Positions 8,802 to 63,804 of a DNA stretch of 64,000 bases are shown here, piece by piece. Both the position numbers and the translations under genes were made by a program. The first letter of the stretch is position 1. The number at the start of each line of letters is the position of its first letter. A model generated the notes under the pieces. That model had not been told where the DNA came from and did no database searches. It saw nothing but the letters and a program-made list of their open reading frames with translations. This DNA comes from Lachnospiraceae bacterium (GTDB taxonomy: Bacteria; Bacillota; Clostridia; Lachnospirales; Lachnospiraceae). The stretch spans positions 89,511-153,510 of the forward strand of contig JAAUZC010000009.1 in assembly GCA_014804795.1 (NCBI GenBank), given 5' to 3'.

Positions 8802-8915
8802 AGGTATCCTTACAGTTTTCTCTCTATCAATATACGTCTGTTTTTACGATACCATTCCTTTTCTTTTCCTGCAATAGTTTTCACAAAAACTTAATTATTG
8901 TATTTTATTCCAGTT

Positions 8916-9272
8916 CTACTCCTTCATCTTTGGTTTGAATATCAGGCTCGCCAGATACCCGAAAATAAGCGCTGCGCCCGTGCCCACGGCTGCCGCTTTG
9001 AAGCCGCCCATAAACAGACCGATAAAACCGTTTTCATCCACCGCTTCTTTGACACCCTTCATTAAATTATGACCAAAGCCCATTAACGGCACAGTCACGC
9101 CTGCTCCCGCAAACTCTGCAAGCGGATCATAGAGTCCGACAAAACTGAGTACCGCACCGAGACAGACAAGCAGCACCATGATTCTGCCCGGCAGCATTTT
9201 TGTTCTTTCCAACAAAATCTGCGCCAACGCACAGATCAGTCCCCCAACCCAAAACGCATGAAAATATTCCAT
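8916..9272 (-). CDS. spoVAE: Spore membrane protein SpoVAE (SpoVAEb type)
   Basis: 118 residues from ATG 9272 (MEYFHAF), preceded by GGAGG. It has four hydrophobic segments and the conserved GVTVPLMGFGHNLMKGV block of SpoVAC/SpoVAE paralogues. SpoVA proteins form the inner spore membrane channel for Ca-dipicolinic acid. In the usual order it follows spoVAD directly; here aroK, ridA and a 76-codon ORF lie between. A promoter of sigma-G type (9305-9334) sits immediately upstream, overlapping the end of aroK, so it need not depend on upstream transcription. Confidence 0.9.
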   Translation of the reverse strand: MEYFHAFWVGGLICALAQILLERTKMLPGRIMVLLVCLGAVLSFVGLYDPLAEFAGAGVTVPLMGFGHNLMKGVKEAVDENGFIGLFMGGFKAAAVGTGAALIFGYLASLIFKPKMKE

Positions 9273-47807: not shown

Positions 47808-48746
47808 TCATTTTTCTATCTCTCCTGCAAAATACTCCCCGATTTTCGCAATAAATGCCAGTGCATCCCGTTTCATCACATCCGGAAATGCCGACAAAGC
47901 AGGCGCTGTCTCAAAATTCAGCACTCCCTCATAATGTATATTCCTCAAGCCTCTGATAAAGCCGTCCCAGTCCGTTGAAGCCTTATTTTCCCTTGTCTTT
48001 GTAAAGGTAAAAGGAATCTGATGCAGATCCATCACGCCGTCATTATCGTGGATATGCAGCACCTTTAATCGATGCCCAAGTTTTGTCATAAACTTCTCCA
48101 TATCCAGCCCCACCAGATTGGCATGTCCTGTATCAAAGCAGAACCCGAGCACCTCCGCATGATACTTTTCATTGATGCGGTCGATGCGTTCCATCGCCTT
48201 CACTGCATCACAGCAAGGTCCCTCCACAAGATGTCCCCCCACACTGTCATACAGATTCTCTATACAAATCGTTATTCCCATCTCTTTTGCATAAGGTGCA
48301 ATAGAGTCGATAAATTTCTCTGTCTGTTCCCACTCTCTGTCTTCCGAGCCAAGAAACTTCGCAAGCTTAAAACCATGTATCACAATATAGGAACACTCCA
48401 AAAATGCACACAATTCCATGCTCTTAGGCGCCACCTGATGCCACAGATAATCATTTAATTCCTTATTCCCCTTTGGCACATAGATCGGGTAAGGCATGTG
48501 CATCTGATGTATCCTGACACCTGCCGTCTGAGCTCCCTTTTTATGAGGCGTAAAAAATTGTTCCAACTCATCAATAGACACATCAAAAAACGTATTCCGC
48601 CTGTTTCGGTAAATATCATTATTGAGCAAATAGCCGTTCAGCGAAAAATCAACACAGGAAAATCCCGCCTGTGCCAACATCGAAAGCCCCTCTTCCGGAT
48701 GTATATCACTTACTACATTTTTAGTCTGTACGCCTGATTGAAGCAT
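47808..48746 (-). CDS. Sugar phosphate isomerase/epimerase-like TIM barrel (xylose isomerase-like)
   Basis: 312 residues from ATG 48746 (MLQSGVQ), AGGAGAG upstream. Metal-binding pattern of the family is complete: Glu in CIENLYD, Asp and His in FCFDTGHAN, His/Asp in LHIHDNDG, Glu in LNFET. Probably an epimerase or isomerase acting on a sugar or sugar phosphate. The last gene of the glycan cluster and paralogous to its upstream neighbour. Confidence 0.82.
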   Translation of the reverse strand: MLQSGVQTKNVVSDIHPEEGLSMLAQAGFSCVDFSLNGYLLNNDIYRNRRNTFFDVSIDELEQFFTPHKKGAQTAGVRIHQMHMPYPIYVPKGNKELNDYLWHQVAPKSMELCAFLECSYIVIHGFKLAKFLGSEDREWEQTEKFIDSIAPYAKEMGITICIENLYDSVGGHLVEGPCCDAVKAMERIDRINEKYHAEVLGFCFDTGHANLVGLDMEKFMTKLGHRLKVLHIHDNDGVMDLHQIPFTFTKTRENKASTDWDGFIRGLRNIHYEGVLNFETAPALSAFPDVMKRDALAFIAKIGEYFAGEIEK

Positions 48747-48762
48747 TTCTCTCTCCTGTTCC

Positions 48763-48790
48763 GATTCCGCATAAATCACCGGTCTTCCAG
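48763..48790 (-). repeat. Hairpin element remnant
   Basis: Minus strand CTGGAAGACCGG then TTTATGCGGAA, the same order and wording as the 3' half of the full element (CTGGAAGG..TTATGCGGAA). It overlaps the end of the upstream gene and sits before a ribosome binding site, as the full copies do. Confidence 0.45.
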
Positions 48791-50041
48791 CCTGTCAAAA
48801 TAAAATGTCGGCATATATTCATCATTAAAAAATTCTATCGGATTGGCAATCCCCATATTTCTGAGCTGCTCTTCTATCTCCCGGTAATAAATATTACAGA
48901 TAAAGATTACACAATCCTCCGGCAGATTCCTCAGACTTTCCGGATTTTTTACCTCAAGTCCGCAGAATTCATTCCCCCACAATGCCCTGTTGTTATCACA
49001 GGTAAATAGCGGCGGATATTCCTCCCCATAACACTTCATATAATTCCTGCACATATTCCCTGCCCCAAACAGCACTCTGACGGGATATTTCCGCAGGAGA
49101 TTTTCCATCTCAATCTGCCATTTAAAATAGTCCGCCACCGATTTTGCCATCCTGACCAGTTCCGGACGCAGGATTGGTGAAAATGCTGTCGCCGTATCAC
49201 GAAAGTCAATGATCAGCTCCCCGTCAAAACCTGTCCTTCGCAGTCCTCTGATCAGATTCAGCCAGTCCGTCTGTGACTGTCCCTTCCCTGCACAGGTAAA
49301 GGGCAGTAAAGCACTCTCATTCACACCGTCACAGTCCCGCAATATGACTGTTTTCAGCCTGTCCCCTATGTTCATAATAAAATCATACATATTCTGTCCG
49401 CAAAGATTGCAGGTCCCTGCATCCATACAGAAACCGAAGCGTTCTTCTCCGGCTTCTCTATTTAATGCATCTATCCAATCCGCTGCTTCTCTTCCATCCG
49501 AACAGATGCCGCGCACCAAATGACCGTTTATATCTTTACACTGATTTTCAAGAAGGATCCTCACATTATTTTTTCTTGCTTCATCTGCAAGCTCCAAATA
49601 ATATGTTCTGTTTACCTCCCATAACTCTTCCTCAGCTATTCCGGCAAAAAGCGGCCTGACAACCAGATATTTACAGTTACTCTTTCCACATATTTTTATA
49701 CTCTCTTTGGCCAGTCTTTTCAAAAGATCGTTCAGGTCGCTGCGTTTTGTATTTCTACTTAGACAGGGCATCATCGCCACAGAACAACCCAGTTTTTTCC
49801 GGGTACACTGCTCCAGCATCCCTTCCGCACGGCTATACAGCTCTTCCGGATGCTCCGATACCAAAGCCTTATTCTTAGATCGTTTTATATTGCTTTTTCC
49901 GATATTTTCCAGTTCCCTCGATGTGCAGAACAGTGCCATATCCAGTACAATATTTCGAAATCCCGCTCCTGCAATATCCGTGATTCCCTGCCCGGGACGT
50001 TCTGCCTCAACAATTCCGGATGGTTTACAACTGATTTCCAA
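48776..50041 (-). CDS. Degenerate TIM-barrel epimerase paralogue with C-terminal Rossmann-like tag
   Basis: 421 residues. Residues ~1-310 align block by block with the neighbouring epimerase (NGHLVRGICSD against GGHLVEGPCCD; FGFCMDAG against LGFCFDTG), but metal ligands are lost: DTGH has become DAGT, HIHDND has become LRDCDG, and NFET has become DFRD. Residues ~320-421 are the shared tag domain (VRVLFGAGN, CDNN, IFICN). Probably not a working epimerase; perhaps a binding or scaffold protein. Confidence 0.75.
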   Translation of the reverse strand: MEISCKPSGIVEAERPGQGITDIAGAGFRNIVLDMALFCTSRELENIGKSNIKRSKNKALVSEHPEELYSRAEGMLEQCTRKKLGCSVAMMPCLSRNTKRSDLNDLLKRLAKESIKICGKSNCKYLVVRPLFAGIAEEELWEVNRTYYLELADEARKNNVRILLENQCKDINGHLVRGICSDGREAADWIDALNREAGEERFGFCMDAGTCNLCGQNMYDFIMNIGDRLKTVILRDCDGVNESALLPFTCAGKGQSQTDWLNLIRGLRRTGFDGELIIDFRDTATAFSPILRPELVRMAKSVADYFKWQIEMENLLRKYPVRVLFGAGNMCRNYMKCYGEEYPPLFTCDNNRALWGNEFCGLEVKNPESLRNLPEDCVIFICNIYYREIEEQLRNMGIANPIEFFNDEYMPTFYFDRLEDR

Positions 50042-50043
50042 TA

Positions 50044-52314
50044 CTATATCCCCGCTTCCTGCTCCTGTATTTTTCTCTTATCCCTCTGCAGCGTCTCCCT
50101 TATCTTGCTGGAGCTTGTCTTCTCCGTGTAAGAAAAAAATACAATGTCCGCACCATTTTTCTCCAAAAATTCCCGATCCGCCAGCCATATCGGATTATCT
50201 CTGTGATCATCCCCCGTAAACTGACAGTCAAACTGATACATCTTATACGCATCCCTGATCCCTGCATAGTCCACAGGCAATGCCTCGGCCTGATCTACAT
50301 ACCTGCAGGCCCGGAGCACCTCCACCCGGTCCTCACATGGTATGATCGGATATTTTTTCTTCTGCCGATACACCGCTTCATCCGGGAGTACTCCCACAAT
50401 CAGATAATCACACTGCTCCTTCGCCCTGCGAAGCAGATTCACATGCCCTATGTGAAACATATCAAAGACACCTGCCACATAGCCGATATGATACTTTTTC
50501 GCTTTCCCTTCCTGTCCTGTTATTTGAACAGCAAAAGACGCCTGCTTGCGTGGGTATACTTTTCCGGAATCGTAAATACCATAATTTTTCACTCCCATGT
50601 CATCCAGCTGCTGAATAACAGAAAGATAATTCTTAATGCAAATAATCACCTTATACTCATCCGGCGCCATTTCTCCAAGAAAATCCGGCGAGACGATTTC
50701 GATTCCGTCCATGGTCTGTCCCCACCTGCTTTCATTATTATCGATGATAGCAGAAACCGGATAGTCCTTCCCGTACATTGCAAGAAAACGTTTTGCAAAA
50801 TTCCCCGAGCCGAATAAGATCAGTTTACGCCTCTCCGCCCCCTTAAAAATGTCCACAAATAATTTCTGATACACCGCCTCAGAATAATTCATACGCTGTC
50901 GGTTGGCATTTATCACTTCTATATTTCCCCGGCATTTTTCATGATAAACCCGCAGTTCTTCACTTTTCAGGAGATTTCTCAAAAAATCCCTCTCCCGCTT
51001 CTGCCACAGCGGCAGATAGCGATCCAGCCCGTACCGCTCATATAATTCTTTCACCGGAATGTGTTTCTGCAAATCCGCCGCCTGAGCATAAATCGTCCCC
51101 AGCATCCGGTATATCAAAAAATTAGCCGGACAATTTTCCTCACAAAATTCCTGATCATAAAACACAAATTCATCATTGATATAAAAACTATTCAAAGGTA
51201 CCAGATCCAAATAGCCTTTTTTCAGAACCGCCCCTTTTCCATCGCCCTTATCAGGCTCTGTCACTTCAGAAGACTGCAGGATCAAATCCCTGAAATGATC
51301 CAGTCTCTCCAAAAATTTCTCTTTGTCTGTCCGCAAAAGCCGCTTTAAATAAACATGCCCTGTCTCCGCATTTACATAAGGCATCCTGCAGACCCCATTC
51401 TCAATACCGGCATCTACCACAGATAAACCGTGCGCCTTCAGATCCTCCCCATTGCGCACTAACTGTTCCAGCCGTTCTCTGCTCCGGGGGGACACCGCCC
51501 TCTTTTCCACTATTCCGGATTTTCGTATGACAGTCAAAAGCGCATTTTCTTCCCCCCGCTCCAACGAGCAGGTGACATGACTGACATCCGACACTTCCCC
51601 GCACAGGGAACATTCAATCAGATATGCATTCGCCATCTGGTGAAACATTCCATTTTGAACCAGACTCTCATATAGAGCGTTTTCTTCCAGAAAAACAGTA
51701 TCCGGATGATGATATGTCGGAAATAATCGGTTGGTCAGATCTTCGTTCGGCAAATAGTCTTCCGCGTAGATCACAGCGGGATTCCGCAGATCCGTTAAAA
51801 CAGAAAAGAAACGGACATTCTCCTCTCTCCACCCTGCTTCCGATAACATTTTCTTTATTTCTGCACGGTCATACATGCGCCCCCGAAAAACATCCTCATT
51901 TTTAGCGTAAGCTCTCCTGTAGTTCTCAATGCCGTCAAAATTTCGCCCCGTATAGGAATCCCTGTCCCCGCAAAAATACTTGATTCCCAGACGGTTATTC
52001 ATTCCGAGAAGCATACGACCATCCGCTGTCAACAGCCCTTTCCACGAAAGAAGACACTTTTCAGGATGCTCTTCCTGCTCTGGTTTTTCAATCGCCACTA
52101 CATAATCAAAATATCCTTGATGCGCCGAATTCCAGTCCGGCTGCATCGTTTGTGCTGTCGATGTACATATGAGTTCTTCACTATGCTCTCCCAGGTACTC
52201 CGCCAGAGCGTCCTGCGGGTTTCCTATGTACAATATTTTTCTGTCTTCCCCGAAATCAAACCAGCAGAGCAGACCTTTTTGAATTTCCCATATAAGCTTC
52301 TCTGACATTTCCAT
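50044..52314 (-). CDS. Three-part protein: methyltransferase-like, Rossmann-like tag, cytidylyltransferase
   Basis: 756 residues. Residues ~1-250: class I SAM methyltransferase-like (ILYIGNP, a degenerate glycine motif). Residues ~280-470: a glycan-cluster region with [21 protein letters not shown]. Residues ~496-585: the tag domain ([21 protein letters not shown]). Residues ~608-745: a TagD/GCT-like nucleotidyltransferase ([40 protein letters not shown]). Likely makes a CDP-polyol or similar activated precursor. GGAG overlaps the end of the upstream gene. Confidence 0.8.
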
Positions 52315-52320
52315 TGTTCA

Positions 52321-53658
52321 TCACTCCATTATTTTCCATACAGCTTCATCTACCCGGAATACATGCCTGAAATTATATTGTAACAGATTCTGATACAATT
52401 CATACTGGCTGCGCTCCGCCACCGCAATGATTATTGCGCAGGTTTCCGCCAGTCCAGCCGTTTCCTGCAGTTCACAGACAGGAATCCCTTCCCACTCAGC
52501 CATTTCCGGGGACATTTTTGTCACAGCAAAACATATATTCGCCACTTCATATTTTTTCAGAGCCGCCGCCAGCTTCTGTCCCACCTTTCCGGCTCCATAG
52601 ACTACTACCTGCGGGAACATTTTCATATATTCTGCAAATGCCCGGCCATACAGTTTCATATTATCAAATTCACAAAACTTCACTCGCATATCCTGCATGT
52701 CCTTGGCCGTCTTCCGAAAGAAACCATTCCTGTCTTTTTGCACAGAACAGATCTGTTCCCATACAGGTCCGGAAAATGCCCTTTCCACCACTCTCCCGCT
52801 TCGCACATCCGCCTCCAGGGATTCCGAGAGCCGCAGCAATAACGCATATTGATACTGTACTGCCACCCTGCCGTAATGACTGAAATAATCACGGTATTTT
52901 GTAGCCACAAAATACTTTTCAATTTCCGGTTTGTGTTCCCATACTCCCGAAAAAATTTCCTCCAGCCATCCGTATTCTTCAAATACGCAGAATATCTTAT
53001 CGGGATTATGCATGGAAGAACCCGGATTATCCTTTCGATAATGCAGCACTGCATCGGAAATAAAGTAGGCACGTTCCACATTCATCCACACCTGCAGGGC
53101 AAACGAAATATCCTGAAAAGATGCTCCCGGCGTCTCATGAAAACGGATATTGTGTTCCACCAGAAAATCCCGCCTCATAAGACAGGTCCAGATCGTATCT
53201 GCCAGATTTAATATTTGGGGACAGACAGACGCATTGATGATCCGGTTTTTCGGATAATCTTTCAACCAGTCGCACAGCCAGTCTTTTCCATTTTGATAGA
53301 TGTAATGATTTGACTTCACGACTTCCGCATCATGATCCGCTGCCGCCCTGTACAGTCTCTGCAGCATATCCGGTTCCGCAAAATCGTCACTCTCTATAAT
53401 GGCAATATACTCACCCTCTGCATGATCCAGCGCTACATTCATCGTATTGCCATATCCGGTATTCTTCTTATGAATCACCTGTATGCGGCGGTCTGTCACT
53501 GCATATCTATCCAAAACAGCACCGCTTCCATCTGTAGAGCCGTCATCCACACAGATAATCTCTATATCTTCCATCGATTGTCCTGTCACGCTGTCCAGAC
53601 ATTGTTCCAGATATTTCTCAACATTGCAGACAGGGATAAGCACAGATACTTTTGCCAT
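52321..53658 (-). CDS. GT2 glycosyltransferase with C-terminal Rossmann-like tag
   Basis: 445 residues. GT2 domain: SVLIPVCNVEKYLEQCLDSV, VDDGSTDGS, IESDDFAEP (DxD-like). Residues ~348-445 are the tag domain: VVVYGAGKVGQKLA, a weaker acidic position (VTKMS) and IIIAVAERS. Adds a sugar to a surface glycan in the cytoplasm. GGAG before the start. Confidence 0.85.
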   Translation of the reverse strand: MAKVSVLIPVCNVEKYLEQCLDSVTGQSMEDIEIICVDDGSTDGSGAVLDRYAVTDRRIQVIHKKNTGYGNTMNVALDHAEGEYIAIIESDDFAEPDMLQRLYRAAADHDAEVVKSNHYIYQNGKDWLCDWLKDYPKNRIINASVCPQILNLADTIWTCLMRRDFLVEHNIRFHETPGASFQDISFALQVWMNVERAYFISDAVLHYRKDNPGSSMHNPDKIFCVFEEYGWLEEIFSGVWEHKPEIEKYFVATKYRDYFSHYGRVAVQYQYALLLRLSESLEADVRSGRVVERAFSGPVWEQICSVQKDRNGFFRKTAKDMQDMRVKFCEFDNMKLYGRAFAEYMKMFPQVVVYGAGKVGQKLAAALKKYEVANICFAVTKMSPEMAEWEGIPVCELQETAGLAETCAIIIAVAERSQYELYQNLLQYNFRHVFRVDEAVWKIME

Positions 53659-53681
53659 GTTCTATCACTCCGTTTCCAATC

Positions 53682-54875
53682 CTAAAAATATTCCTCAGGC
53701 GCCTGCCAATAAAGCTTTTCTGCGGATATACCCGCCTCCGCCAGAGAACCCCTTATTTTTTTAGCAAGACTGCTGTCTTTTACCGCAATGATAACCATAT
53801 CAAATGACAGCTCTGTCATTTTTTCCACGCCGATCACTTCCGCATATTCAAAATGATATTTCTGCCGGTTTGCATCGACCCATGCCACAATATCGCAGTC
53901 CTCATATCTGCAGATCTGAGAGTAATAATCCTGTCCAACACTCCCCGCACCATATATTACAATCCGCTTTCCCCTAATCTGTGATATATTTTTCAAAAAA
54001 TATCGTGGAATATGCAGCTGTCCTCTACTGATATATTCCACTGTCTGCAGTATGCGCCCCCGCAAAAAGCCTGTCGCATTCTCTTTTACAATTTCAAGGC
54101 ACTCATATTCCCTTATAGTATTTGCAACATGATACCACAATCCTATCTCCTGCAAGATGCGCTCATTCTTTTCCAGATGAGCTAATGACCGCTCTTTCAC
54201 AACATAATGATATAATGCCTTCCGTTTCAACGAAATACGTCTGCTCTCTAAAATACACCTGAGCAGACACAGCATATCTTCCCCATATTGCTGCTCATCT
54301 GGCAGAGACGCAAAACATTTTTTGACCAGCTCTGCCCTGAAAAGCTTGGACCAGATACTCGGAAAAATAAAATTTTTGCCGCCGTTCAGAAAATGATCGC
54401 ACAAAAATGCGATTTTACACGATATCTCACACACATCTGCGACAGCATCCTCAAAGTTTAAGATGATCCTTTCCTCTCCATCTTTCTCCTCAATAAAGCC
54501 AAAATGTACAAAGTCGGCCCCGCATTCCAGGATACTTTGCAATAACTCAGAAAACATATCCGGCTCAATGTAGTCATCTGCATCCACAAAACCGATATAT
54601 TCTCCGTCTGCCTTTTCCAGGCCGAGTTTTCTTGAGACGACGGAACCACCGTTTTCTGTATGGTATACTTCTATACGTTTGTCTTTCTGTGCATACCTGT
54701 CACAAATATCTCCTGAACTGTCCGTGGAACCGTCATCGATCAGTATGATCTGCAGATTGTGATAGGTCTGCCGCAAAATACTTCCGATGCACTGATCCAG
54801 ATATTCTTCTGCATTATATACCGGTACGATCACGCTGATCTTACTGTTGTCTGTCACTTCACCGATTTCCCCCAA
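53682..54875 (-). CDS. GT2 glycosyltransferase with C-terminal Rossmann-like tag
   Basis: 397 residues. SVIVPVYNAEEYLDQCIGSIL, IDDGSTDSSG, VDADDYIEPDM mark a GT2 enzyme. Tag domain at about residues 301-397: IVIYGAGSVGQDYY, WVDAN, VIIAVKDSS. Close relative in layout of the neighbour at 52321. Confidence 0.87.
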   Translation of the reverse strand: MGEIGEVTDNSKISVIVPVYNAEEYLDQCIGSILRQTYHNLQIILIDDGSTDSSGDICDRYAQKDKRIEVYHTENGGSVVSRKLGLEKADGEYIGFVDADDYIEPDMFSELLQSILECGADFVHFGFIEEKDGEERIILNFEDAVADVCEISCKIAFLCDHFLNGGKNFIFPSIWSKLFRAELVKKCFASLPDEQQYGEDMLCLLRCILESRRISLKRKALYHYVVKERSLAHLEKNERILQEIGLWYHVANTIREYECLEIVKENATGFLRGRILQTVEYISRGQLHIPRYFLKNISQIRGKRIVIYGAGSVGQDYYSQICRYEDCDIVAWVDANRQKYHFEYAEVIGVEKMTELSFDMVIIAVKDSSLAKKIRGSLAEAGISAEKLYWQAPEEYF

Positions 54876-54878
54876 CGA

Positions 54879-56411
54879 TCAAATATAAAGTAATTTTTCT
54901 TCAGCGATACAATAATTCTTTAATTCTTCTGTTATCTCCTGTCTCAACGTCTCTTTTTTTACAGCGAGAATAATGTAATCATAGTCTAATTTCTGAATCT
55001 CTTCGGGAGAAGTCACCTTCTCGCAAAACATAGCGGGAAGTTGTCTATACAGCTTATCCACCCATGCAGCAATCTCATTTTTCTCTGCCAGTTCCAGATA
55101 AGCAATTTTTCCTATATTTCCCGCACCATATATTATCACTTTACCATTTTCTATATTCGGTAAATCTATCTTTGCAGAACTCACATTGTTATCCCATCTC
55201 AGCCCGCACTCCAGAAAAAGCGGTATATACAGCTCCCGAAAAGTCTCTTTCCCCCACTTCAACAATTGGCTTCGTTCAAAAATAAAATCCTCCGCTTTTT
55301 TGAAACTGTCATAATGCCCATGCCATCCCCGCTCAGCATGCTCTTTCTGAAATCTGGGCAGACGATCCTGAAATACTTTCTTTTCCGCCTGTTCCATACT
55401 CCTCAAAGGATAATGCCTGTTCAAAAACTTCAACGGATATGCTTTAGGATTGGTTATGTGTACAAAATGCCCCGCCGCTGACTTCAAATCTACTTTCTGT
55501 GACTTCTTCCATGTTTTTAACTGATCAAACAATTTTCTATCATGGCGAAAATCAAAAAAGGTATCCTCCATAAAAATATTGCCGGAATCTCGCTTTGTAA
55601 ATCTGAAATCTATAACTGTATTTTCTATACAGTTATAACCCTGCCTGTCAATATGGTATATTGCTTCCCGCAAAGTCACATTTTCCCAGGGACTTACTCT
55701 CATCTCATCTGCATCATAGTGGATAAACCAATCATAATTTAATTCTTTACTGATTTTCTCAGTTTTCTCCAGTTGATTATACCATTCGTAATTTTCACTT
55801 TTTCCTGATAACGGGAACTGTTCCAAATATATTCTCTCAGGATAATCGTTTTGATACCTTTCCGCAATTTCATAGCTGCCATCATCTGACCAGTTATCCA
55901 ACAAATACAGGTCTATCTCCTGAGACAGAAGATACTGTATCGTTCTCTCAAGAATATCCGCCTCATTATAAAAATGAATGACTGCCAGCACTTTAAACTC
56001 GTCCGGTACTGCAAGTCCTCGGGGACTCTGAAAACTTACTCCCGTCAAAAATAAAACGCCCGTCAAACCTGAATATCTGTCAAGATAGTGAGGCGTTCCC
56101 AACATTTTCATGTCCTCATCGGATATATCCGTATCAGAAGAAATATAGATGATAAAATCCTTTGTTTCTTTTTCTTCCATGACCCAGGGAATGATCTGTT
56201 CAAGCTCTTCCCTGTCAATGATGTGTATGTATACGACTTCTCCTGTCATATCCTCCCTTGTATTTCCTTTGATAACATGAATCGCAGGATATAAACACTC
56301 CAACTCTTCGACAGATTCTCCAAATACATACAAATCTTTTATTTCACGGCAGTTTAATATCCGATTAATGATATCTGAAATAATAGTATTATCTTTGGAA
56401 AAAATATCCAT
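54879..56411 (-). CDS. GT2-type glycosyltransferase (GT2_4 like) with C-terminal tag
   Basis: 510 residues from ATG 56411 (MDIFSKD), AAAGGA upstream. An N-terminal ~110 residues of Rossmann-like character, then a glycosyltransferase core: FYNEADILERTIQYLL, LLDNWSDDGS, FIHYDADEMRVSP, NRHYPLRS. Tag domain at about 422-510: VIIYGAGNIGK, WVDK, IILAVKKET. Confidence 0.82.
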   Translation of the reverse strand: MDIFSKDNTIISDIINRILNCREIKDLYVFGESVEELECLYPAIHVIKGNTREDMTGEVVYIHIIDREELEQIIPWVMEEKETKDFIIYISSDTDISDEDMKMLGTPHYLDRYSGLTGVLFLTGVSFQSPRGLAVPDEFKVLAVIHFYNEADILERTIQYLLSQEIDLYLLDNWSDDGSYEIAERYQNDYPERIYLEQFPLSGKSENYEWYNQLEKTEKISKELNYDWFIHYDADEMRVSPWENVTLREAIYHIDRQGYNCIENTVIDFRFTKRDSGNIFMEDTFFDFRHDRKLFDQLKTWKKSQKVDLKSAAGHFVHITNPKAYPLKFLNRHYPLRSMEQAEKKVFQDRLPRFQKEHAERGWHGHYDSFKKAEDFIFERSQLLKWGKETFRELYIPLFLECGLRWDNNVSSAKIDLPNIENGKVIIYGAGNIGKIAYLELAEKNEIAAWVDKLYRQLPAMFCEKVTSPEEIQKLDYDYIILAVKKETLRQEITEELKNYCIAEEKLLYI

Positions 56412-56436
56412 ATACTTTTCCTTTCCCGTCTCCATG

Positions 56437-57657
56437 TTAATAAGCAATCTTCTCAAATTTCATCTCATCCAGCATGTCCTTTTCAATCCGGCCACCGGCT
56501 ACATAGAGCTCCAGCGTCTTATCATACAGAACACCCCTCAATTCGTAAAACTTTTGTCTCAGTATCCTCTGCTCCCTGCTATTCCAAAAAGCCCAAAAAT
56601 GGTGCCGATAAGTTTCAGTATTCTTTTCATTTGATTTTAAAATACTATTTTCATATACAAAAAACCGCAGTAAATTATTCTGACAAGCCGGATCCATTTT
56701 TGTATTATACATTTCCAGCCCTTTACCGGAAACCATCAATAAATACTGACCTTCTGTAACCGAATAAGCTTTATTAAAACTCTCCGCCCTGATTGGCTGT
56801 GCCGCATACTCATTCCTGGAAATTACATAATTGCGGTTTGGCAGATTTTCTATCGATTTACCACATAGTAAGGCAGTTATCATCTCCCTCAAATCGGAAG
56901 TCTGTATAAGCCTTTGATCATGCTCTGCTTCTGTCCTGTAAATCCCATCCCATATCATCAATGGCGTATGGATCAAAAGATTATTTGGTTCAATCGCGTG
57001 TGTCAAACCATTGTGCGCCCCATGTCCCCAGTAATCATCGCCGTGGTCACCATATAATACGATGATCGTATCATCCATTAGACTTTTTTCTCTCAAAAGC
57101 CTTAATAAATCCTCACAGCATTTATCCATACAGCGATAACCTGCTTCCCAATTATCTATATCCATACCATAACTATTGATATCCACATAACTATTCAAAC
57201 TCAGGTTACTGATATAATTACATGCCATCAATGCAAATGGTTGTCCGCTCATCTTTTGTTCAAAAGCATTTACATATTCAGAATACTCATATATCAATTC
57301 CATACGATTATGAAATCCTGCAAGATGTCTTTTTTCTGCACTTTCATGATCCGCGCCATCAAAATATATATATATTCCGGTATGATACCCCTGTTCCTTC
57401 AGATCATCAAAAAGTGAAGAAGAATAACAATATTCTTTCGGAATAAAGTCAAGAGAATCGCATACCTCATAAATCTTCATTCCTCCATACAGTAAATCCC
57501 CTATCGCCATAAGAGTAGACGTTGCAGTGGAATAATAATGATCAAATACCATACACTGCTTCTCAATTTCTCTCAAAGCCGGAAATAATTCAGGATTCAT
57601 TCTATAATTAAGGACATTAAGACTCTCCAAATGTACCAGCAATAAATTCTTCTTCAT
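56437..57657 (-). CDS. Sulfatase/phosphoglycerol-transferase family protein
   Basis: 406 residues from ATG 57657 (MKKNLLL), with GGAG 9 nt upstream, ATGA overlapping the upstream gene. Alkaline-phosphatase-superfamily features: LLLVHLESLN (metal Glu/Asp region), YYSTATSTLMA with a Thr/Ser nucleophile, VLYGDHGDDYWGHGAHNGL with metal His/Asp. No membrane segments are visible, unlike LtaS. Could transfer or remove a phospho- or sulfo-substituent of the glycan. It lacks the tag domain, but the stand-alone tag gene is fused to its start by overlap. Confidence 0.8.
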   Translation of the reverse strand: MKKNLLLVHLESLNVLNYRMNPELFPALREIEKQCMVFDHYYSTATSTLMAIGDLLYGGMKIYEVCDSLDFIPKEYCYSSSLFDDLKEQGYHTGIYIYFDGADHESAEKRHLAGFHNRMELIYEYSEYVNAFEQKMSGQPFALMACNYISNLSLNSYVDINSYGMDIDNWEAGYRCMDKCCEDLLRLLREKSLMDDTIIVLYGDHGDDYWGHGAHNGLTHAIEPNNLLIHTPLMIWDGIYRTEAEHDQRLIQTSDLREMITALLCGKSIENLPNRNYVISRNEYAAQPIRAESFNKAYSVTEGQYLLMVSGKGLEMYNTKMDPACQNNLLRFFVYENSILKSNEKNTETYRHHFWAFWNSREQRILRQKFYELRGVLYDKTLELYVAGGRIEKDMLDEMKFEKIAY

Positions 57658-58058
57658 GTCTGATTTCTCCATCCATAAATAGAATCAATCAATTCTTCAA
57701 CAGATATGATCTTTCCTGTCACAAATTTCAACAAATCGCTTTCCACTGTCTCTACATCCGCCAATGTCGTAATAATGGCCATATCGACATCCTCCAGCTT
57801 ATCCATCTCACCCGGTCTCACTAAATTGCAACAAGCCTCATCATTAGAAGCCGACCTGTCCACCACCCAGCTAATAGGAAAATCCTGCGCCTGGAGTTCT
57901 CTGACAAGATGCTTTCCCAATATGCCATACCCATAAACGCCTACCCGATGGATCTGATATATATTTAGATAGTCAGCAATCTGTTTATTCTTTTCATGAT
58001 TTGACAGCCATTTACTCAGACATCTCATTATTTTTCGAAATTTTTCTTCATTGTTCAT
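57654..58058 (-). CDS. Stand-alone Rossmann-like tag protein
   Basis: 134 residues: a ~30-residue helix (CLSKWLSNHEKNKQIADYL) then the tag domain alone from about residue 34 (VGVYGYGILGKHLVREL, WVVDRS, MAIITTLAD). Very similar to the C-terminal part of the next gene upstream (CLDSWMSLKEKG, GILGKHLLYEL), so a recent duplication is likely. Overlaps the sulfatase-like gene by 4 nt, as if a split version of the usual fusion. Confidence 0.75.
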   Translation of the reverse strand: MNNEEKFRKIMRCLSKWLSNHEKNKQIADYLNIYQIHRVGVYGYGILGKHLVRELQAQDFPISWVVDRSASNDEACCNLVRPGEMDKLEDVDMAIITTLADVETVESDLLKFVTGKIISVEELIDSIYGWRNQT

Positions 58059-58083
58059 CGCAAATACCTATCCTGTAAATACT

Positions 58084-59625
58084 TTATACCTCACTAATCA
58101 ATTCTGTTATAGAAAAAATAGGACAGCCCAATTTTTCTTTTAAGGTTTCATAAATATCATCAAAATCTGCCAGTGCCGTCACCACTACTGCATCCACTAT
58201 ATCCAATTCATCATTTACATTTCTTACTTCCGCCTGGGGGTAATGTAAATCTGCCCGCCGATCAATAATATACGCAATTTTTATTTCTGCCTGTTCCAAC
58301 TCATACAATAAATGCTTTCCTAAAATTCCGACCCCATATATGGCAATCACATTATAATGAAACCGTTTTAAGTAATTTGCGGGGTTTATTCCTTTTTCCT
58401 TCAACGACATCCAACTATCAAGACAATTTGCAATCAACATATGTTTATTTTTTACATTTAACATTTCTGCAGCGTCTTCGTTTTCACTTTTACCACATTT
58501 TTCAATATCAATATCTCCATTCTGCACTTCCCTTTCTACTTTATCCCTTGCATCACGAACTGCCTCAAGATATTGATAGCCATACTCCTCATCCGGCTCC
58601 AGATAGGCACCCTCGCCCCATTCGTTCCATGCATTTATAAACACAAATTCATTATCTGCCAAAATATTTTTCTTTACTAACTGATAAAAATAGTTTTGAA
58701 ATTTCTCTATAGAAAAGCCGCCCAATACAAAACCGTTCTTTCCATGTCTTGGCGTACCGTCAACATTTGCCAATCCTCCAAAAAAGGTTTTGCATCCTTT
58801 TACCGACTCTGCTGTCAAAATATTGTGCCATACATCATCATAGGAATATACTTTTACTCCCTTCATGTCATCTGGTACAATTTTTTTCCGACCATAGTTT
58901 ACATACATTGTAGGTGCATTAAACATTATTGCGTCCAATCCTTTTCTTGGAGCAGCAATATTCACTCCTATAAAATACATACCCGGAAAATTGTATTCAT
59001 CAGCCAATTTACGCCAATAATCCAGCATTTGATATAAACAATATATTTCATCCGGTTTATATATTAAAAATACGGGAGCTCCATCAATTTTTATATATCG
59101 CTCATCTCTGAAAAACGGAAGAAGATACTCAAAATGCTCTCTCCAGTCATCTTCCCTTCCATATTTTTGCTCTAATAAAATATCTTTCTCATTTGCTCTG
59201 CTGCTGTCTCTCTTTTCAAATTTTGCCATCCAGCTGTTTTTATTCCTGATATTGCTCCACGTTCTAGCCCAGCTTTCATTCGCCCAGCAAAAGCAATAGG
59301 GCATATCAATATCTTTCCAATTCAAAAGATTCTCGGCCGGTTTTTCAAGTATCTTTCTCCCATCTTTAAAATAATAATGATAGAAACACATGCCATCAAC
59401 TTTATATTCCTGCATTAATTTGCTTTGTTGCTGCATTGTTGATTTTTCTAACAAATTATAATAATTTTCATGCAATGGCGTTTTAGGCTGAGCATGTCCT
59501 TCAAATAAAGGGACTGCTGTTTTAGAAGCTACCCAGTCTGTAAACCCCTCCCCCCACCATTCATCATTTTCTTTTACTCTGTGAAACTGCGGAAGATACA
59601 TCGCCAGTATTTTTATTTTATCCAT
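58084..59625 (-). CDS. WbsX/GH99-like glycosyltransferase or hydrolase with C-terminal tag
   Basis: 513 residues from ATG 59625 (MDKIKIL), GGGG upstream. The WbsX family: MYLPQFHRVKENDEWWGEGFTDW, FCWANESWARTW, FVFINAWNEWGEGAYLEPD are its hallmark blocks. Role in O-antigen and capsule assembly is known by association; the activity is uncertain. Tag domain at about 422-513 (IAIYGVGILGKHLL, IIDRR, VVVTALADF). Confidence 0.85.
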   Translation of the reverse strand: MDKIKILAMYLPQFHRVKENDEWWGEGFTDWVASKTAVPLFEGHAQPKTPLHENYYNLLEKSTMQQQSKLMQEYKVDGMCFYHYYFKDGRKILEKPAENLLNWKDIDMPYCFCWANESWARTWSNIRNKNSWMAKFEKRDSSRANEKDILLEQKYGREDDWREHFEYLLPFFRDERYIKIDGAPVFLIYKPDEIYCLYQMLDYWRKLADEYNFPGMYFIGVNIAAPRKGLDAIMFNAPTMYVNYGRKKIVPDDMKGVKVYSYDDVWHNILTAESVKGCKTFFGGLANVDGTPRHGKNGFVLGGFSIEKFQNYFYQLVKKNILADNEFVFINAWNEWGEGAYLEPDEEYGYQYLEAVRDARDKVEREVQNGDIDIEKCGKSENEDAAEMLNVKNKHMLIANCLDSWMSLKEKGINPANYLKRFHYNVIAIYGVGILGKHLLYELEQAEIKIAYIIDRRADLHYPQAEVRNVNDELDIVDAVVVTALADFDDIYETLKEKLGCPIFSITELISEV

Positions 59626-59643
59626 ATATTTTCCCCACACTTC

Positions 59644-60819
59644 TTATACATACCAATATTCAGATGAGATATCTCTCCAATATACAACTGTTCCCATCTT
59701 TTCTTTCAGCTTCTTTTCAACTTCTGTATTATGATTCATCAAAGTAATAACAATAGCATCAACCTCTTCAAATTCATCCTGAGGATACACTACTTTCAAT
59801 GCATTCATATCCTTCTTTTGCTGATCTATGCCATATCTGACATTTATATGAACTTTAGGTGCAATTTCTAAAAAAGTGCTTCCAACATTCCCCAAGCCAT
59901 ATACTGCAACATTCTTTATATTATGGGCCGCAAAATATTCCTCTAACTCTTTTAGAAACAGCATATACTTTGTTTCCAATTCTTCTGTCAGTGAAGAGTC
60001 TATTTTCATTATTTCCTGCACTTTTTTCTTTTCATATCTATTGCGTAATACAAAATAGAATCTAAATTTACTCTTTTTTGCGTATTCTTCTCCATATAGT
60101 TGTTCTGACAAATTTATATATGCCATTGTACCGGCAGGATTGTTAATCCACTTAGCCCGGCCATTTTTAGTCAATCCGTCTTCCCGATAATCACAAATAT
60201 ATATTATTTCTTTATACCACCGAAGTTTATATCCATCTCTTGCAATCGCATTCCACACCACACCTTCAGTAATAAAATTTTCTCCGTCATATTCCGGGAA
60301 ACGATATTTCTTTAAAATACTTGTTTTATATACTTCTGCTTTATCCCTTAATAAACCATACTTTTCCCGTTCTAAATTCGTAATATCAATATAACTTGAA
60401 TCAAAATTTCCCCATCCTCCTATCGGATACTTTTCTGTCTTTCCTCTTAAACCACTTATTCCCGCAAAAGAATCATTTTTCCTGATAGTTTCAAACCAAT
60501 CAATCACCTTATCGATTGCTTTATCTAAAAGATAATCATCGCTGTCTACAATAAAAAACGCTTCTGCCGATGCCATATCCACAGCTTTGTTGATTGCTCT
60601 GTGTTTTCCGCCATTTTCCACCTTACAGTATTTTATTTCAAAGCCATTATCTTCAAGTAACCACTTTTGAAACAGCATTTCTGTATTATCGGCACTGCCA
60701 TCGTCAATTACAATCCACTCAAAATTCTTATTTGTTTGACTTCTTAACGATTCGTATAAATTTTGGATAATATACCCTCTGTTATAAGTTGGAGTGAATA
60801 CTGTTACACTTATAGACAT
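59644..60819 (-). CDS. GT2 glycosyltransferase with C-terminal tag
   Basis: 391 residues from ATG 60819 (MSISVTV), GAGGAG upstream. GT2: TVFTPTYNRGYIIQNLYESL, IDDGSADNTE, VDSDDYLLDKAID. Tag at about 299-391: VAVYGLGNVGSTFL, GIDQQ, IVITLMNHN. Confidence 0.87.
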   Translation of the reverse strand: MSISVTVFTPTYNRGYIIQNLYESLRSQTNKNFEWIVIDDGSADNTEMLFQKWLLEDNGFEIKYCKVENGGKHRAINKAVDMASAEAFFIVDSDDYLLDKAIDKVIDWFETIRKNDSFAGISGLRGKTEKYPIGGWGNFDSSYIDITNLEREKYGLLRDKAEVYKTSILKKYRFPEYDGENFITEGVVWNAIARDGYKLRWYKEIIYICDYREDGLTKNGRAKWINNPAGTMAYINLSEQLYGEEYAKKSKFRFYFVLRNRYEKKKVQEIMKIDSSLTEELETKYMLFLKELEEYFAAHNIKNVAVYGLGNVGSTFLEIAPKVHINVRYGIDQQKKDMNALKVVYPQDEFEEVDAIVITLMNHNTEVEKKLKEKMGTVVYWRDISSEYWYV

Positions 60820-60863
60820 GTTTTTAGTTACTCCTCTCATTCCGTCAACGCCTAATCCTGCAT

Positions 60864-61973
60864 TTACTGCTTATCATAAATTGTTTTATATAGATCATGC
60901 ATTTTTTTTACCCGATTTTTTTTCTCATCGGCCGCCCATGAACCATCATAATGATGAATCAAAAAAGTATCTTTTGTGGGGCTTATTTTTCCTGTATAAT
61001 TACATTTCCCTGACAATACCTTTTCTGGATATACCACAAGTTTATCAATTTTTTGATATTCGCCATTATTTATATATCCCAGATTGTTGAAAAAAGAAAT
61101 CTGCAAAGTCGGTGCTGCAGTTACATTCATACTGCCATCAGGATTGTAAAAAGAACGGCTGTCGTATTCATCCATCAATTCCTTTATAATACGAAAATGC
61201 GTTCTTGCTCCAAATCCCAGGCCCAAACTAATATTTTTCGAACCATCTATTCCCATAAAAGCATCCTCATATAATAACTCGTCCAGATTTTTGATTATTT
61301 CCACATCGGTATCCAGATAAATACCACCATAGTGATAAATAATATCCAGTTCCACATAATCCGAAACAAATCCCCATTTCCCTGCCTGATATGCTTCATA
61401 CATATACTTATTTTTTGAAACATCATAGTTGCTTTCATTCCATTCAATAATTTCATAATCAGGACAGTACCTCTTCCAGCTGGCCATCCACTCCTTATTT
61501 TGTGCAGGAATTTCTTTTCCTCCAAACCAGCAATAATGTATCACCTTTGGTATTACAGGATTATCATACACTCTCAGATTCTCAGGATAATATCTATTTC
61601 TTTCATCTGCCTCATTTGTCATGCCTCTCACAAATGGCAAAATGCAGCACTCTGCATCTTTTAAATTATCTATTAGCTGTAACTGCTCATATACCGATAT
61701 AGCATCAGCACATGATATCAACAAAATAAAATCTTTCAATGGATAATTTCTGCAGAATTTTTCTATTGAAATCACATTTATTTTCTGTCCTCTTATATTG
61801 ATTTGCGTGCCATCTTTCTCTGTATCATTATCTAAAATCAATACAATTTCTTTCTCTATTTCTAATTCCATGTAATCTCTTATAAAATTAAGGAGCATTT
61901 TACCGGCTCCGAAACAAACAATCTTTTTTTTTCTATTCATTAACTGATACAGGTCTATGTTCAATAATCTCAT
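60864..61973 (-). CDS. GT32-type capsular glycosyltransferase with N-terminal tag
   Basis: 369 residues. Here the tag domain is N-terminal (about residues 13-118: IVCFGAGKMLLNF, ILDNDTE, FILLISCAD). The C-terminal part is an Och1-like, DxD-containing transferase: IPKVIHYCWFGGKEIP, YEIIEWNESNYD, KWGFVSDYVELDIIYHYGGIYLDTDVE. The change of end argues that the tag is a mobile domain. Confidence 0.87.
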   Translation of the reverse strand: MRLLNIDLYQLMNRKKKIVCFGAGKMLLNFIRDYMELEIEKEIVLILDNDTEKDGTQINIRGQKINVISIEKFCRNYPLKDFILLISCADAISVYEQLQLIDNLKDAECCILPFVRGMTNEADERNRYYPENLRVYDNPVIPKVIHYCWFGGKEIPAQNKEWMASWKRYCPDYEIIEWNESNYDVSKNKYMYEAYQAGKWGFVSDYVELDIIYHYGGIYLDTDVEIIKNLDELLYEDAFMGIDGSKNISLGLGFGARTHFRIIKELMDEYDSRSFYNPDGSMNVTAAPTLQISFFNNLGYINNGEYQKIDKLVVYPEKVLSGKCNYTGKISPTKDTFLIHHYDGSWAADEKKNRVKKMHDLYKTIYDKQ

Positions 61974-62052: not shown

Positions 62053-63018
62053 CTAAATTACAATCCCCGCTTTCACGATCATCTGCCACGTCAATACTCC
62101 TACCACACGACCATCATCATCCACCACTGGATAATTGTTGATACTGCCTTCTCTCAAATTATGCAGTGCCTGTACCGCTAAAATGTCCTTTTTAATCGTT
62201 CGAGGAGAAGGGGTCATGATCGTATCAATAATATCACTATACATATCTACTCTTTTCTCAATAGCTCTCCGCAGATCGCCATCCGTCAACAAACCTGACA
62301 ATTTATCATTTTGATCTACAATGGCCACTACTCCTAACTGCTTCCGGCTCATTTCCATAATAGCTTCCGAAATTAAAGCTTTTTCTCTGACAATCGGCAT
62401 ATCCTCACCTGTCGCCATAATATCACACACACGCAGCAAAACCCTTTTTCCTAATGAACCTGCCGGATGAAACAAGGCAAAATTATCCTCACAGAAACCA
62501 TACTCTTCCGATGCAACTACTGCCAAAGCATCTCCATAGGCAAGCACAGCCGTGGTACTCGATGTCGGAGCAAGATTCAGATTACATGCTTCCTGAACAT
62601 TCGGCATTACCTGAACCAGTTCACTCTCCCTTGCCAGTGTAGAATTTTCATTTGATGTAATTGCAACAATCTTCGCACCAATAGCTTTAAGGGATGGAAT
62701 CAGATTCAAGATCTCCTGACTCTCCCCACTGTTGCTAATCAGTATTACAAGATCAGATTCTGTCACCATTCCCAAATCCCCGTGCATTGCCTCCGCAGGA
62801 TGCAGATAAAAAGAGGATGTTCCCAGACTGGACATGGTCGCTGATATTTTTTTTGCAATATGTCCCGATTTACCCATACCACATAAAACTACTTTACCCT
62901 TGCATTGTATTATTGCGTAGATAACTTCTGAGAAAGTATGATCCAACTTTTCTTTCGTTTTTATTAAAGCATTTATTTCTATGTCAAAGACTTTTCTTGC
63001 TTCCACTAAATAATCCAT
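62053..63018 (-). CDS. KdsD/KpsF/GutQ-type arabinose-5-phosphate isomerase
   Basis: 321 residues. SIS domain (GMGKSGHIAKKISATMSSLGT, HPAEAMHGDLGMV, ISNSGES) and two CBS domains after about residue 205 (MATGEDMPIV, LTDGDLRRAI, VLTWQM). In this family ribulose-5-P is converted to arabinose-5-P, the first step to Kdo. KdsA is the next gene upstream. Confidence 0.9.
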   Translation of the reverse strand: MDYLVEARKVFDIEINALIKTKEKLDHTFSEVIYAIIQCKGKVVLCGMGKSGHIAKKISATMSSLGTSSFYLHPAEAMHGDLGMVTESDLVILISNSGESQEILNLIPSLKAIGAKIVAITSNENSTLARESELVQVMPNVQEACNLNLAPTSSTTAVLAYGDALAVVASEEYGFCEDNFALFHPAGSLGKRVLLRVCDIMATGEDMPIVREKALISEAIMEMSRKQLGVVAIVDQNDKLSGLLTDGDLRRAIEKRVDMYSDIIDTIMTPSPRTIKKDILAVQALHNLREGSINNYPVVDDDGRVVGVLTWQMIVKAGIVI

Positions 63019-63024
63019 AATTAT

Positions 63025-63804
63025 TTATTTCACAATCTCTTTTATTTTTAAGCATTCCTCTATCAGTTTTTTTACATTGCCAATAGGTATCATATTAGGC
63101 CCATCTGACAAAGCCTCTGATGGATTAATATGTGTCTCCAAAAATAGACCATCCGCCCCTGCTGCAACTGCTGCTCTGGAGAGATATGGAACATATTCTC
63201 TGTTTCCGGAAGTGGAAGTGCCATTTCCTCCCGGTTTTTGCACACTGTGTGTTCCGTCAAAAATAACCGGATAACCTGTTTTTTTCATTTCTACAATAGA
63301 TGTCATATCCACAACTAAAGTGTTGTATCCAAAGCTTGTTCCTCTCTCACAGAGCATGATATTTTTATTGCCGGACTCCTCTATTTTATGTATTACATTC
63401 CGCATATCCCATGGTGCCAGAAATTGCGCTTTTTTGACATTGATAGTCTTACCAGTTCGTGCTGCTGCCACGAGCAGATCCGTTTGCCTGCATAAAAAAG
63501 CCGGAATCTGAATGATATCGCAGACCTCTGCAGCTTGCTTCGCCTGATATGGTTCATGGATATCCGTCACTATTCTTAACTGATATTTATCCTTTACCTT
63601 TTGCAAAATTTTAAGCCCCTGCTCTATTCCCGGTCCGCGAAAAGAATCTATGCTTGTCCTGTTTGCTTTATCAAAAGAAGCTTTAAAATAGAAATCAATA
63701 TTTAATTCGGAACTAATCTTTTTTAACTCTTCTGCCATCTGCAATGTAATTGTTTCATTCTCAATTACACATGGACCTGCGATAACAATAAATTTTTTTT
63801 GCAT
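63025..63804 (-). CDS. kdsA: 3-deoxy-8-phosphooctulonate (Kdo-8-P) synthase
   Basis: 259 residues. Condenses arabinose-5-P with phosphoenolpyruvate. Seen: [82 protein letters not shown]. Kdo is typical of Gram-negative LPS; here it presumably feeds a capsule-like polymer. No CMP-Kdo synthetase gene is visible in the window. Confidence 0.95.

Follow-up and report, generated by a model that had tools for sequence, protein, structure and literature searches.

Small Rossmann-type domains are known as accessory parts of several enzymes that handle sugar nucleotides. In WbaP and in WbpM/FlaA1-type proteins (3nkl), such a domain sits on membrane phosphoglycosyl transferases and dehydratases, and in PglD, NeuD, VioB and WeeI (PF17836) it is followed by an acetyltransferase domain. 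According to published work, the domain of WbaP and one of the PglD family bind uridine nucleotides, the latter uridine diphosphate (UDP) (PMC10942596, PMC8040287), and most of the contacts within the WbaP dimer are made by that domain. Here, we describe a module of this kind, about 95 residues long, in a 64,000-nucleotide (nt) stretch of Lachnospiraceae bacterium DNA (assembly GCA_014804795.1, contig JAAUZC010000009.1, hereafter C9, positions 89511-153510, forward strand), which we call the window. Whereas the domain of WbaP and WbpM belongs to the enzyme types named above, the module of the window is carried by many unrelated enzymes of one cluster and may be N-terminal, C-terminal, internal or free-standing. 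Because the fold is known from several sugar-nucleotide enzymes, the domain itself is not new; what appears new is that many transferases of a single pathway are equipped with it, in cis and perhaps in trans. The first-pass annotation of this DNA had proposed a candidate undescribed system, which stands for the cluster-wide use and not for the fold: we found no description of a shared tag on many transferases of one pathway in the open-access literature (titles and abstract starts).

Nine proteins of the window carry one homologous Rossmann module. A Pfam scan identified its partners as a TIM-barrel sugar-isomerase-like protein, a 756-residue cytidylyltransferase-like protein, four GT2-type glycosyltransferases, a WbsX protein and a GT32-like enzyme (Table 1). 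When each protein was searched with a profile of the other eight modules, all nine were recovered, with expectation values (E) of 1e-11, 1e-10, 1e-9, 7e-9, 1e-7, 2e-6, 2e-6, 5e-6 and 1.6e-3 in a search set of ten proteins, with E scaled to 5000 sequences and no decoy set. The weakest recovery was that of the N-terminal module 9 of the GT32-like protein. Modules 6 and 9, the two of the nine for which AlphaFold models were made, were predicted separately, and their core strands and helices follow each other in the same order. The recovery by profile and the matching predicted core folds indicate that the nine modules are one domain and not unrelated ones, and the shared module of about 90 residues that had been read at all nine genes was thus borne out. 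Its described placement, internal in the nucleotidyltransferase protein and N-terminal at 60864, is also correct, except that six copies and not seven are C-terminal, as the copy at 57654 stands alone. The glycine motif, given as YGAGxxG or a close variant, was found by pattern in eight modules, and the ninth (protein 60864-61973) reads FGAGKML; the acidic strand tip is present as an aspartate of strand 2 in eight and replaced by valine in protein 52321-53658. We could rule out that the modules are separate, ordinary catalytic domains, because none scores above the cut-off of any listed Pfam or NCBIfam family, whereas profiles of the modules recover one another.

Among solved structures, those nearest to the module are Rex and accessory domains from enzymes of sugar-nucleotide metabolism, the folds including KijD1/TcaB9 and PglD-type acetyltransferases, and the chains of 3nkl and WbaP match the module by profile. 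A Foldseek search of the PDB with module 6 gave no match at E <= 0.001; a second fold comparison of the same module ranked Rex highest, RCK domains and 3nkl trailing it by no more than about 1.5 Z. CoA_binding_3 (PF13727), the model of the WbaP domain, was not among the matches of ten window proteins (E <= 1) or of 77 modules gathered with an iterated profile (E <= 1e-3). With PglD_N (PF17836), the best window module scored 16.8 bits against a cut-off of 23.4, and TIGR03570 also stayed under its cut-off. Unlike in PglD and its kin, no acetyltransferase domain follows the module in the window proteins, and no left-handed beta-helix acetyltransferase domain was among the Pfam matches of the ten proteins (E <= 1). 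C2185-like_N (PF22674), from the same protein as the uncharacterised Clostridium acetobutylicum 2g6t, is known only as an uncharacterised N-terminal domain; against its cut-off of 27 bits, the best window module reached 16.1 and the module of a TylF-like protein outside the window 25.1. The NAD(H)-sensing domain of Rex is similar in sequence and fold, but the module here is fused to transferases, and the N-terminal winged-helix DNA-binding domain of Rex type was not found among the Pfam matches of the ten window proteins (E <= 1).

The iterated profile gathered its 77 modules, up to eight per 20 kilobases (kb), from the window, its continuation and 20 further stretches. Their most conserved columns, after weighting, are the aromatic-Gly-Ala-Gly loop (its two glycines at 98% and 92%) and the aspartate of strand 2 (82%). 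The picture is the same in a set of 98 modules, of which 89 come from loci outside the window and nine from within it: the two glycines reach 100% and 99%, the aspartate 85%. Identity to the first sequence is low (10-28%), yet the loop residues are conserved, and the conserved loop and aspartate point to a ligand site that most copies would have kept. Valine takes the place of the aspartate in 14 of the 77 modules (52333-52632, L045:16169-16471, L048:13505-13804 and 11 others); this subtype may bind another ligand or none.

The run of modules, which had been placed at 48776..61973, does hold all nine there but continues past the edge of the window. Searched with the nine-module profile at E <= 0.1, the whole genome gave 15 places: nine in the window, five in the next 8.4 kb of the same contig and one elsewhere, with 14 of the 15 falling within 24 kb. 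The outlying match is a protein that reads as TrkA-type from its sequence, no family search having been made of it. Past the edge, four matches are clear N-terminal modules, borne by a TylF-like methyltransferase, a Maf-family (MptE-like) protein, a TupA-like ATP-grasp enzyme and a TOD1/MUCI70-type enzyme, and the fifth is a partial module in a 116-residue frame beside an FkbM methyltransferase frame. The FkbM and 116-residue frames (L016:7979-8587 and 8691-9041) lie 103 nt apart in different reading frames, the 116-residue frame upstream, and represent either two genes or a disrupted fusion.

A flagellin gene lies at C9:174001-175470 on the minus strand, followed by a GT2 gene and then by the module run, with all picked genes on the minus strand; the run is downstream of fliC on the same strand. 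The first 606 residues of this GT2 protein match GT2 (E 4.6e-11) and, under the cut-off, TPR (E 0.0044). The Maf-family transferase of the run, which bears one of the N-terminal modules, scores 70.1 bits with PF01973 against a cut-off of 34.6. All four initiating phosphoglycosyl transferase genes of the genome (PF02397) are on other contigs, on which the whole-genome search with the nine-module profile found no module. Because flagellin, the GT2 gene and the run share one strand and the PF02397 genes lie on module-free contigs, we interpret the cluster as probably a flagellin glycosylation island, a type of locus already described, and flagellin would be the substrate of its enzymes. With the islands of Clostridium (PMC13317340), this locus has in common a flagellin-adjoining gene run, a GT2 gene neighbouring fliC and a Maf-family protein; the differences are nonulosonic acid there and genes for the 3-deoxy-D-manno-octulosonic acid (Kdo) pathway here, and the many tagged transferases here. 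The word "Rossmann" is absent from the main text of that paper. Three of the cytidine monophosphate (CMP)-Kdo genes, KdsA and a KpsF-family isomerase (window 62053-63804) and KdsB (L016:1362-2087), are each above an NCBIfam cut-off and all untagged. Since Maf enzymes of other species can use CMP-Kdo, as PMC11339370 reports, and the Kdo genes here share their cluster with a Maf-family protein, it is reasonable to guess that the flagellin may carry Kdo. The glycan run also contains a PdxA-family gene (L016:11077-12129, E 1e-99), a member of the vitamin B6 pathway not expected there, and between the run and the flagellin gene an 844-residue protein (L016:16093-18627) matched no Pfam family at E <= 0.01.

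The profile search for co-occurrence that the first-pass annotation had suggested showed that the module recurs in clusters in other genomes. At E <= 1e-5, the nine-module profile matched 16 of 61 related genomes, this one included, mostly in runs. Flagellin and the module, again mostly in runs, share one contig in genomes G000, G001, G005, G006, G007, G008 and G030, and in other genera and families in G086, G100, G141, G168, G191 and G239. Among 196 genomes of the class, flagellin is present in 80: 15 of the 17 with modules versus 65 of the 179 others (Fisher test, 3.7e-5). For this comparison, the 28 matching genomes were sorted by eye: 17 were taken to have modules, and the other 11 had one match each, in a frame as long as Rex (213-240 residues, 44-59 bits), G080 (196 residues, 74 bits) and G218 (242 residues, 82 bits) being counted as modules.

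We also searched genome contigs with the 756-residue protein and took the best 80 of 342 loci, which are not independent and include Dorea sp. 5-2, Pseudobutyrivibrio and Paenibacillus; two of the 80, which lack a nucleotidyltransferase frame, do not enter the comparison of tagged and untagged proteins. At least two further modules were present at 29 of the 32 loci with a tagged nucleotidyltransferase protein versus 5 of the 46 with an untagged one (Fisher test, 5e-13, a value that is too small because the loci are related). In 26 of the 32, the tagged protein is at least 700 residues long and keeps the module inside. Flagellin is encoded in all 26 genomes drawn from module-bearing loci, and in 11 of them it lies within 60 kb of the nucleotidyltransferase protein on one contig, where at most 4.6 (an upper bound) were expected; 24 of the 26 have the tagged nucleotidyltransferase protein (L112 and L115 do not), and L115 is among the 11 linked. 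In module runs, 207 of 276 same-strand genes of at least 150 residues are tagged (35 loci, chosen for at least three modules). At 27 of the first 32 loci, we examined the neighbours of the tagged relatives of the 756-residue protein: of the genes that could be seen, 17 of 26 upstream and 23 of 26 downstream carried the tag. Two tagged genes at the ends of two contigs of assembly G021 (L058:1-1310 and L059:10509-11818) are near-identical over the first 60 module residues and are probably one locus, split or repeated.

Some of these surveys speak against a fixed tie to flagellin or to the lineage. Fifteen of the 26 genomes have no flagellin within 60 kb on the same contig, many contigs being short, and module runs on contigs without flagellin exist (for example G006:C9, G007:C10 and G001:C52). 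Most of the related genomes, 45 of 61, have no match at E <= 1e-5, and the module is therefore dispensable for the lineage. Of 47 untagged genes in flagellin-free runs, three each belong to the ribulose-phosphate epimerase, IspD-type and alcohol-dehydrogenase families.

The first-pass annotation had taken the modules for a shared docking or sensing tag that gathers the enzymes of the pathway into one assembly. A pathway-specific docking code, under which the cognate tags of one cluster should resemble each other, was not supported. In 63 of the 77 modules (fourteen near-identical ones were dropped), similarity within clusters was 0.106 versus 0.100, a difference reached by 63 of 1000 shuffles, and the nearest neighbour came from the same cluster in 12 of 63 cases, with 6.7 expected. 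This excess was gone once pairs with homologous partners were removed (254 of 1000 shuffles reach the value), so that sharing a cluster does not make modules more similar than belonging to different ones, which counts against cognate pairing. Similarity instead follows the partner enzyme and the placement (0 of 1000 shuffles each).

We then compared tagged and untagged proteins, the tagged set comprising 107 of 110 non-redundant proteins after the fragment L101:1-666 and two over-length proteins had been left out. Epimerase-family matches were seen in 4 of 53 untagged proteins and were absent among the 25 of 50 families listed for the 107 tagged ones, which corresponds to at most 1 of 107. The idea that tags avoid precursor enzymes, for which the untagged KdsA, KpsF-family isomerase and KdsB of the island also speak, is a weak one, as GT2 enzymes occur both tagged and untagged.

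Stand-alone copies provide a different view of the module. Of eight for which both neighbouring genes are visible, seven abut an untagged gene of at least 250 residues (gap <= 25 nt or overlap), versus 88 of 250 tagged genes (Fisher test, 0.0044). Frames cut by the end of a stretch (L048, L052 and L115) were dropped from this set, and the solos of L087 and L092, whose upstream neighbour is not visible, stand outside the eight. The five of the seven untagged neighbours that were scanned are a GT4 enzyme, a pyruvyl transferase, a GT56-like enzyme, a GT11 enzyme and the sulfatase-fold protein of the window, whose gene (56437-57672) overlaps that of the stand-alone module (57654-58058) by 19 nt. 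Given this preference for untagged neighbours, the most economical interpretation would be that certain enzymes obtain their module in trans. A single subclass, A5, accounts for eight of the ten genuine stand-alone copies; it otherwise forms only C-terminal tails (18 of 26) and includes none of 106 N-terminal or 32 internal modules, with ten of its 26 members having served to make the A5 profile. A module of A5 is also present in each of the five WbsX-like proteins found. The subclass is rare, occurring in 5 of 398 genomes of the phylum at E <= 1e-9.

On these grounds, we propose that the module is a nucleotide-binding association or regulatory tag, a reading to which we give a probability of about 0.5. 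On this view it is one of the mobile Rossmann accessory domains known from WbpM-type dehydratases (3nkl), WbaP, PglD/VioB/WeeI, KijD1/TcaB9 and Rex. Both in this island, which probably serves flagellin glycosylation, and in comparable glycan clusters of other Bacillota, it goes with many of the transferases, either fused at the N terminus, internally or at the C terminus, or as a separate small protein encoded next door. With its conserved glycine loop and strand-2 aspartate, the module would most likely bind a nucleotide or a nucleotide-sugar, and it would self-associate or contact its neighbours; the transferases of one glycan would thereby share a ligand-controlled association or feedback handle. 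Ligand binding, suggested by the relatives, is the better supported half of this proposal; the assembly half would rest on the stand-alone copies and the WbaP precedent.

Several observations pull the other way. The third glycine of the loop is lost in three of the nine window modules (1, 2 and 9) and kept in only 62-73% of modules overall (62% in the 98-module and 73% in the 77-module set), and valine replaces the aspartate in 14-16%. The hairpin that joins the WbaP dimer (residues 251-268) lies outside the aligned part, which ends at 236-243. Untagged glycosyltransferases are present in tagged clusters, and the GT2 share is much the same with the tag (35 of 107) as without it (14 of 53; p 0.47). 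The neighbour test on stand-alone copies has n = 8 and was conceived after the pattern was seen.

A more specific form of the proposal is tentative and, in our view, doubtful. In it, the transferases would form a cytoplasmic, tag-built assembly in which each enzyme has a nucleotide-gated tag in cis or a stand-alone partner, mostly A5, and the set would be assembled or switched as a unit by released nucleotide. If it were true, new transferases could join the pathway by gaining one domain, which fits the variability of the islands.

Of similarly low likelihood is a sensor without assembly, in which each enzyme would be subject to feedback by uridine or cytidine monophosphate, UDP or NAD(H). The conserved loop and the precedents of WbaP and the PglD family favour such a sensor, as do the lack of cluster-specific similarity and the greater likeness of modules with homologous partners. 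Stand-alone modules beside untagged enzymes are, however, hard to explain without contact to another protein, and the occurrence of internal, N-terminal and C-terminal placements also speaks against it. Contact between proteins is what a pure docking tag would provide, with the modules as a scaffold and the glycine loop as a remnant of the fold. The tag is on most genes of module-rich clusters, is perhaps supplied in trans, and has a homologue in WbaP that makes dimer contacts, but the loop and the aspartate are the most conserved residues and no within-cluster code was seen, which makes a scaffold alone improbable.

The domain of KijD1/TcaB9 helps to hold a nucleotide-sugar or carrier for its catalytic domain. 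The module could likewise form part of the donor or acceptor site of its own enzyme, as in PglD; its closest folds include both types, and a PglD-family domain binds UDP in published work. Untagged GT2 enzymes occur in the same clusters, so the module is not required for GT2 donor binding, and stand-alone copies exist, leaving this explanation quite improbable. Neutral hitch-hiking of a harmless, recombination-prone domain spread by fusion in a hypervariable island would fit the strong differences between runs and the varied placements, but it is scarcely credible given loop residues conserved at such low identity and nucleotidyltransferase proteins that mostly keep the module inside.

If the nucleotide-binding tag is correct, the module would be a general handle for regulating or gathering unrelated glycan enzymes and would help to explain how the flagellin glycosylation islands of gut bacteria swap enzymes yet stay functional. 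Such islands could then be recognised by it in sequence data, and glycoengineering would gain a tag that can be moved between enzymes. The finding also raises a concrete question about the Rossmann domains of FkbM, WbpM-type, WbaP and 2g6t proteins, namely which features they share.

Table 1. Genes and modules of the window. Positions are those of the 64,000-nt stretch; pLDDT, predicted local distance difference test.
Feature	Position	Strand	Evidence
Xylose-isomerase-like TIM-barrel protein, 421 residues, C-terminal module	48776..50041	-	PF01261 E 9.8e-13; module by profile
Module 1 (FGAGNMC ... CDNN)	48812..49096	-	profile
756-residue protein, internal module and C-terminal cytidylyltransferase-like domain	50044..52314	-	PF01467 E 4e-16, residues 613-740
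Module 2, internal (FGSGNFA ... IDNN)	50554..50847	-	profile; single-sequence match to 3nkl E 0.008
GT2 glycosyltransferase, C-terminal module	52321..53658	-	PF00535 E 7e-34
Module 3 (YGAGKVG; strand-2 Asp replaced by Val)	52333..52632	-	profile
GT2 glycosyltransferase, C-terminal module	53682..54875	-	PF00535 E 2.8e-36
Module 4 (YGAGSVG ... VDAN)	53691..53987	-	profile; NeuD-type TIGR03570 E 9.8e-5, under its cut-off
GT2-like glycosyltransferase (Glyco_tranf_2_4), C-terminal module	54879..56411	-	PF13704 E 7.3e-9
Module 5 (YGAGNIG ... VDKL)	54885..55160	-	profile
Sulfatase/alkaline-phosphatase-fold enzyme, without module	56437..57672	-	PF00884 E 3.7e-14
Stand-alone module protein, 134 residues, subclass A5	57654..58058	-	profile
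Module 6 (YGYGILG ... VDRS)	57681..57968	-	AlphaFold model (nine modules as alignment), mean pLDDT 91.3
WbsX glycosyltransferase, C-terminal module, subclass A5	58084..59625	-	PF14307 E 3.5e-114
Module 7 (YGVGILG ... IDRR)	58090..58371	-	profile
GT2 glycosyltransferase, C-terminal module, subclass A5	59644..60819	-	PF00535 E 3.9e-23
Module 8 (YGLGNVG ... IDQQ)	59659..59934	-	profile
GT32-like glycosyltransferase, N-terminal module	60864..61973	-	PF04488 E 3.3e-15
Module 9, N-terminal (FGAGKML ... LDND)	61629..61946	-	leave-one-out E 1.6e-3; AlphaFold model (98 modules as alignment), pLDDT 89.7
KpsF/GutQ-family (KdsD-like) sugar-phosphate isomerase, without module, Kdo precursor	62053..63018	-	TIGR00393 320.9 bits, cut-off 203.7
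KdsA 3-deoxy-8-phosphooctulonate synthase, without module, Kdo precursor	63025..63804	-	TIGR01362 409.4 bits, cut-off 314

Residues 1 to about 480 of the 756-residue protein gave no Pfam match above the cut-off; despite this blank N-terminal part, long relatives of the protein were found in many Lachnospiraceae. At the low-coordinate end of the run, an untagged protein (47808-48779) adjoins the tagged TIM barrel (48776-50041); it is weakly CbiR-like, below the cut-off, and TIM-barrel-like by eye.

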